A stretch of DNA of 27,176 nucleotides from positions 1 to 27,176 of the IMG/VR virus record IMGVR_UViG_3300046171_000090, one strand, 5' to 3'. The first letter of the stretch is position 1. Every line of letters starts with the position of its first letter. The stretch is from a virus. The position numbers were made by a program, and so were the translations under genes. The notes under the pieces were generated by a model. It searched no databases. It was not told the DNA's origin and saw only the letters and a list, made by a program, of their open reading frames with translations. Positions 76-780 of this stretch are shown piece by piece.

Positions 76-780
76 TTACACATCCGCACCAACTTTCTTT
101 AGTTCGGCGATCACATCTGGCCGGTTTTGCTTGTAATAGGTTCGCATCCCGTCAGTAAGCCCTTTCCATTGATCCAGCGTGACCATCTTGCGCTGCGGCG
201 GTGTCCATTCGCTTGATTGCCCGTTAAAGGGCTTAGAATGGCCTGTGACGCGCTTTGGCTTCTTTTTAGCGTCTCTTATGCACCAGTTCTGCCAGAAGGC
301 TGTCAGATCAACGTAGGCGGCTTTGTTGCCGTTCTGCTTATCCCATAACCGTATTGCCTCTAGCACTTCGGCTGCATCAAGACCCTTGCTTTCAGCAAAT
401 TGGCGATCAGCCTCATCAGGTTCCCAGTCAACAACTTTAGTTTTCCCCTTATTTCTTTTTAACGGTTCTTTAATGGTTATGGGTGCGCCAGATGCAGGGG
501 TGTCCTGCATCTGGTGCAGGGGTGCGAGATATGCAGGGGTGTATTCTGTTGACCTTCCCGACCGGTGATTTCGGATCAAAAAGCCACCATCTTCCAGCTT
601 CTTTAACTTAGCCCGAACAGTGCGTTCCGCTGCGCCGGTAACGTGGCAAATATGCCCGACAGACGGCCAAGCAACGCCCCTTGCGTCATTGTGATGGTTC
701 GCAACTACGATCAAAACCAGCTTTGCTAGCGGGTCTTGAACAGGCGCATCCATCGCCCAATCCAATGCTTTAATGCTCAT
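76..780 (-). CDS. Winged-helix phage replication initiation protein (lambda O-like, DnaT-like C-terminus)
   Basis: The 234-residue product has an N-terminal winged helix-turn-helix (about residues 20-85) containing WPSVGHICHVTGAAERTVR, followed by a wing. This is the fold used by phage replication initiators to bind origin DNA. A linker (about 80-115) follows, then a C-terminal segment (about 118-172) with the FWQNWCIRDA pattern, which resembles the DnaT/YdaU-like domain of helicase-loading proteins. The linker-coding DNA carries three iterons, a perfect hairpin and an AT-rich tract, the arrangement known from the lambda O gene. The start is supported by a GGAGAT Shine-Dalgarno 8 bases upstream, and the gene overlaps the upstream DUF6378-like gene by 11 bases. 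The HTH call is firm. The replication role is inferred from domain order, embedded repeats and neighbours; a transcriptional regulator is the main alternative. Confidence 0.75.
   Translation of the reverse strand: MSIKALDWAMDAPVQDPLAKLVLIVVANHHNDARGVAWPSVGHICHVTGAAERTVRAKLKKLEDGGFLIRNHRSGRSTEYTPAYLAPLHQMQDTPASGAPITIKEPLKRNKGKTKVVDWEPDEADRQFAESKGLDAAEVLEAIRLWDKQNGNKAAYVDLTAFWQNWCIRDAKKKPKRVTGHSKPFNGQSSEWTPPQRKMVTLDQWKGLTDGMRTYYKQNRPDVIAELKKVGADV
488..514. repeat. Perfect 11-bp inverted repeat with 5-base loop
   Basis: CCAGATGCAGG (488-498) and CCTGCATCTGG (504-514) are exact reverse complements separated by GGTGT. The left arm contains the start of the first iteron and the right arm ends at the second. 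No U-tract follows, so it is not a terminator. A structured origin element or protein-binding palindrome is more likely. Confidence 0.7.
493..541. repeat. Three direct iteron-like repeats of TGCAGGGGTG
   Basis: The 10-base unit TGCAGGGGTG occurs exactly at 493-502, 515-524 and 532-541, with start-to-start spacing of 22 and 17 bases. Each copy encodes a different peptide stretch or phase in the host gene, so the identity is not explained by repeated protein sequence. They would be natural binding sites for the winged-helix protein encoded around them. Confidence 0.7.

Follow-up and report, generated by a model that had tools for sequence, protein, structure and literature searches.

A probable lambda-type replication origin inside the O-like initiator gene of a small marine phage, with iterons that covary with the encoded winged helix

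The stretch of DNA analysed here (27,176 nucleotides, hereafter the window) comes from what has been called a small marine phage. Positions 1 and 27176, its two ends, adjoin to within 2-3 bases in L004 and L155, two relatives; this makes it look like a complete phage genome of about 27 kb that is circularly permuted. The locus of interest is a gene on the minus strand whose product matches Pfam HTH_36 (E=1.5e-9, residues 17-68); the PF13730 match exceeds the family cut-off and thereby places the protein among the O-like / HTH_36 phage initiators. It also matches PHROGs families 1032, 391 and 270, with the annotations 'replication initiation protein' (E=5e-20) and 'replication initiation O-like' (E=6e-14), and Phage_rep_O, the family of lambda O proper, is absent among its Pfam matches up to an E-value of 0.1. 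Sequence comparison found no solved structural homologue (best E 0.03) and fold comparison of the winged helix gave no match at E below 1e-3, the closest folds being mostly repressors, so that residue contacts are not mappable onto any known complex. At 770-1039 the window encodes a small DUF6378 protein, the matches of which PHROGs labels 'phosphofructokinase'; the label looks like one carried over from fused proteins. The features of the initiator locus are as follows.

76..780, minus strand: O-like replication initiator gene, 234 aa, with Pfam HTH_36 and PHROGs matches
529..780, minus strand: winged-helix domain, residues 1-84; HTH_36 match, predicted model of high confidence over residues 1-70
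589..627, minus strand: recognition helix, residues 52-64, from DSSP on the predicted model
625-627, minus strand: E52 codon; top covarying column, within the recognition helix
613-615, minus strand: R56 codon; top covarying column, within the recognition helix
523..540, minus strand: iteron 1, ACCCCTGCATATCTCGCA; core invariant in 20 relatives
506..523, minus strand: iteron 2, ACCCCTGCACCAGATGCA; begins 17 bp after iteron 1, one base being common to both
484..501, minus strand: iteron 3, ACCCCTGCATCTGGCGCA; 22 bp after iteron 2
about 436-481, minus strand: AT-rich tract, putative unwinding element; AT peak after the arrays, quiet in relatives
488-498/504-514, no strand assigned: inverted repeat of 11 bp with a 5-nt loop; in the window only, probably incidental
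79..444, minus strand: C-terminal domain, residues 113-234, helical in the predicted model
475..750, no strand assigned: winged-helix plus iteron segment, swapped as a block in class C relatives (breakpoints in L044 and L049)

The repeat TGCAGGGGTG is present in exactly three copies (493-502, 515-524 and 532-541), all on one strand and nowhere else in the window; the three copies had been described in the earlier note from the letters alone. Since the gene lies on the minus strand, reading in its direction gives the winged helix, then three copies of CACCCCTGCA, the AT-rich tract and the C-terminal domain; the tract and this lambda-like order of parts, which had been pointed out as well, are both there. 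The full repeat unit is an 18-bp imperfect palindrome, ACCCC-N1-G-N2-A-N5-TNCN, which in the window takes the form ACCCCTGCA-N5-YGCA with a right half complementary to the left. Among the arrays in the matches listed, the base of the right half-site complements the left N2 in 488 of 572 copies. The spacings of 17 and 22 bp are the two commonest among 115 comparable arrays (matches listed), and AT content rises to 0.54 and 0.60 in the two 20-nt bins 3' of the array, against a gene mean of 0.40 (43 nonredundant array genes from the matches listed). Copies 1 and 3 are read in one phase (TPA) and copy 2 in another (APL), and copies stand in more than one phase in 114 of the 115 arrays, so the earlier claim that the repeats do not encode a repeated peptide in one phase was essentially right. 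The 11-bp inverted repeat at 488-514 had been counted as a part of the origin; it does exist, but we dropped it in that role, as it is found in the window alone and is probably incidental. An inverted repeat of 11 bp arises in 83 of 20,000 synonymous resamplings. That of the window is absent in the 26 class A relatives examined, most of which contain no more than the 6-bp palindrome of iteron 2 (CCTGCA-CCAGA-TGCAGG), and L020/L021 and L026 are without even that.

The repeats are real, act at the DNA level and are under purifying selection. Synonymous resampling of the gene, which keeps the protein unchanged, gave some 10-mer in three copies in 5 of 20,000 cases. The gene has a repeat score of 15; in 150 resamplings the mean score was 1.6 and the maximum 6. 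Persistence of the repeats at synonymous sites, proposed beforehand as a check, is found across 20 unique close relatives: none of the 9 degenerate third positions inside the repeat cores is polymorphic, versus 72 of 109 elsewhere in the gene, and outside the cores no stretch of 9 degenerate sites is free of variation. One of 6 degenerate sites is variable in the AT-rich tract. Linker repeats exceed the synonymous null in nearly all full-length relatives, and also in lambda O itself; they do not go beyond chance in L060, L114, L132, L133 and L090. L132 and L133 belong to the CCGTTGACGG group, and their repeats have possibly decayed or are of another sequence.

We also looked for such arrays in viral contigs by a scan blind to protein, asking for three ACCCCNGCA in close succession. 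Among the matches listed, 94 of 118 viral arrays lie inside open frames with this winged helix, compared with a background of 6 of 117 cellular arrays inside winged-helix genes, and array and gene have the same orientation in 99 of 100. The viral arrays outside winged-helix genes are largely simple tandem repeats (matches listed), and the cellular matches, almost all unrelated, served as background; no relative by protein was confirmed in cellular genomes in the first scan. All array scans were confined to one iteron type, ACCCCNG[C/A]A. Some loci depart from the common arrangement. In L482 and L423 the array lies on the strand opposite to the winged-helix gene (in L482 on both strands), and L156, L193 and L207 have ACCCCCGCAAA-type viral arrays in which the covering frame is without a winged-helix profile match; these three could be another kind of repeat locus.

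Winged helix and iterons cosegregate and are exchanged as one block. By their iterons, relatives with protein identities of 51-97% form three classes. The earlier note would have doubted its reading had homologues kept the protein and lost the repeats; this is not what is seen, as relatives with 51-65% protein identity do have repeats at this place, of a different sequence and alongside a different winged helix. Class C genes share 72-98% DNA identity with the window over most of the 3' half of the gene and only 15-63% over the 5' half, iterons included, so the C-terminal domain is kept where winged helix and iterons differ. In L044 and L049 the similarity of DNA to the window ends at 749/754 and restarts at 472/475, with flanks alike on both sides. 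L127 and its relatives likewise have the C-terminal domain of phage C72C1 (97% for L127) with another winged helix and other repeats. Over L127 and L130-L137 as a whole, C72C1-type C-terminal domains of 49-97% identity are joined to a different winged helix, and most have CCGTTGACGG-type repeats in the linker.

We consider it very probable that phage replication starts from 436-541, as an origin of lambda type within a gene, and that it is bound by the winged helix whose coding part lies just upstream. In lambda the origin lies in the middle of gene O and consists of iterons, each a 19-bp inverted-repeat unit, plus an AT-rich tract (PMC7466680), and the domain layout of O is that of the window initiator (PMC6022878). 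In the window, too, it is the linker of the initiator gene, between the parts for the DNA-binding and C-terminal domains, that contains the iterons (484-540); each is an imperfect inverted repeat, of 18 bp compared with 19 bp in lambda, and the AT-rich tract lies on the side coding for the C-terminal interaction domain (peak 0-40 nt after the array). The likeness in iterons, AT-rich tract and C-terminal domain is drawn from PMC7466680 and L065. Lambda iterons had been called longer than those of the window and differently spaced; only the second part holds (20, 24 and 23 bp in lambda, 17 and 22 bp here, with different sequences), and to speak of a separate origin type was too strong because the 18-bp inverted-repeat unit is much like lambda's. 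Other differences from lambda are the match to HTH_36 in Pfam and that no P-like loader gene was recognised. A helicase loader (P) adjoining the origin is a feature of the lambda system, separate from the origin site itself.

Origin activity is inferred, and so are binding as a dimer, direct residue-base contacts, unwinding and recruitment of the helicase. As in lambda, the origin would sit where the phage's initiator gene codes for the linker, and the winged helix, probably as a dimer, would bind each 18-bp iteron with a recognition helix inserted per half-site. Of CCCC-N1-G-N2-A, residue 52 would read N2 and residue 56, one turn further along the helix, N1. Assembly on three iterons may then open the adjoining AT-rich tract. 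The C-terminal domain presumably recruits the replisome and would bring in the host helicase. Recruitment of a host helicase by the initiator itself is suggested because no helicase or P-like loader was recognised among the window proteins scanned; as several of these are without any match, a loader of unrecognised kind is possible. For lambda, iteron binding, opening of the AT-rich tract and helicase recruitment have each been published and support the scheme by analogy (PMC7466680, PMC6022878). A change of GC skew at the gene, another of the proposed checks, is not seen: in the window and in phage C72C1 the skew follows gene direction, with no turn at the initiator gene, and is thus uninformative.

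It could also be that the repeats are an operator, through which the winged helix regulates its own gene or causes transcription to pause, and that replication starts elsewhere. Autoregulated genes, too, combine a winged helix with its cognate repeats, and the closest folds, weak as they are, are mostly those of repressors. Conservation of binding sites is by itself common to both functions and an operator would covary with its protein much alike; sequence alone cannot settle between origin and operator. The repeats, however, are found some 240 nt into the gene, in the linker and well away from the gene start, the AT-rich tract is on one side only of the array, and the protein falls in replication families with a layout that matches lambda. 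We consider an operator unlikely.

That the initiator binds these iterons is supported, indirectly, by covariation. When more than a hundred related genes are compared, two residues change along with two iteron bases, as if protein-DNA recognition followed a readable code: N1 (CCCC-N1-G) tracks residue 56, with C for Q or H, G or T for R, and T for Y, F, N or I, and N2 tracks residue 52, with C for E and A for D. Columns 52 and 56 come first of 84 columns for covariation. In a first set column 56 had z=11.5 and the next column 3.7 (matches listed); after dereplication at 70%, which left 86 genes from the matches listed, we obtained z=17.8 for 56 with N1 (next column 4.7) and z=14.8 for 52 with N2 (next column 7.2), with Fisher p=2e-16 for the former pair and 6e-11 for the latter. 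Counts in these 86 are E-C 45, D-A 17, E-A 7 and D-C 0 at residue 52, and Q-C 35, R-G 13, R-T 11 and Q-T 4 at residue 56. The exceptions are the 4 Q-T cases, mostly with a residue other than D or E at position 52, and the 7 E-A cases, and R does not discriminate G from T. The window itself (E52, R56, TGCA) is consistent with the code, as is a further scan for TGCA arrays, in which none of 48 new loci with the winged helix has Q at 56. In L020/L021, CCCCTGCA is replaced by CCCCCGCA (T to C) in each of the three iterons along with R56Q, one of several differences of their protein from that of the window. L212 and L460 have winged helices 96% identical, differing by E52D, N57K and T81A, and GCA...TGC in the former is GAA...TTC in the latter, at either half-site and in practically all copies. 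The predicted model puts residues 52 and 56 on one face of the recognition helix, near its start and a turn apart, and they may contact N2 and N1 directly.

The association could alternatively reflect shared ancestry with no direct recognition, given the kinship of many of the sequences and the poor resolution of the tree. This seems decidedly doubtful. Two single columns carry the signal, both on the same face of the recognition helix; the others, with an identical ancestry, have much lower scores, and it is precisely at residues 52/56 that near-identical proteins differ. Association of D52 with GAA iterons had been predicted from two sequences (L092 and L093) before the new scan, and in the ACCCCNGAA scan D was then found at 52 in 41 of 57 rows (matches listed), GCA arrays having almost always E, which counts against ancestry as the explanation. 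Of the tree-independent pairs, 16 of 21 and 15 of 19 are concordant (31 of 40 together), and none is opposed. Taken alone the pairs are moderate evidence, because the tree, made from about 80 columns with 51-56 omitted, has many forks that are poorly supported or unresolved.

A partition (centromere-like) or other maintenance site is very improbable: the winged-helix plasmid segregation protein TubR is among the weak structural matches, but the protein matches replication families, and no partition ATPase/GTPase was recognised among the window genes scanned. Repetition at the protein level, or low-complexity expansion of the proline/alanine-rich linker, which is disordered in the predicted model (pLDDT under 50 at residues 87-110) and of a kind that can expand, has next to no probability and was rejected on the mixed reading phases and the frozen synonymous sites described above, to which are added that spacings divisible by 3 are the rarest among the comparable arrays (matches listed) and that L059, with a related winged helix, has its array in opposite orientation with other peptides.

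The lambda-type origin proposed here has parallels in other systems. Furth and Yates (1978) reportedly found, in hybrids of lambda, phi80 and 82, that the DNA-binding end of the initiator and the origin are exchanged together; the exchange seen here is natural, with edges visible at base level. Arguello-Astorga and Ruiz-Medrano (2001) are said to have paired residues of the geminivirus iteron-related domain with iteron bases by comparison. Geminivirus Rep is a plant-virus rolling-circle initiator with iterons outside its gene, and is unrelated to the window initiator in fold and mechanism. In the RepA_N initiator of PLE the DNA-binding domain covaries with the iterons and the C-terminal domain is conserved (PMC8263062); that account describes whole modules of a phage satellite and is not known to assign residues to bases. 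Neither a residue-base code for O-like initiators nor an HTH_36 origin is the subject of any paper found in our search of the open-access literature. We think it rather likely that O-like initiators, which carry reader and target in one gene, will yield a near-predictive winged-helix code from thousands of environmental pairs, one that would start with 56-N1 and 52-N2 and could be extended to the GTCA, TGACA and GCCAC half-site classes also observed here.

The comparisons would add a large and diverse phage group to those with lambda-type origins, a group in which the origin can be located from sequence alone. With protein and binding site in one gene, each sequence is a labelled recognition pair, and a readable winged-helix base code becomes directly testable on natural variants. 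Exchange of one short segment explains how phages can switch origin specificity, and this switching would affect which phages interfere with one another in replication within one cell.
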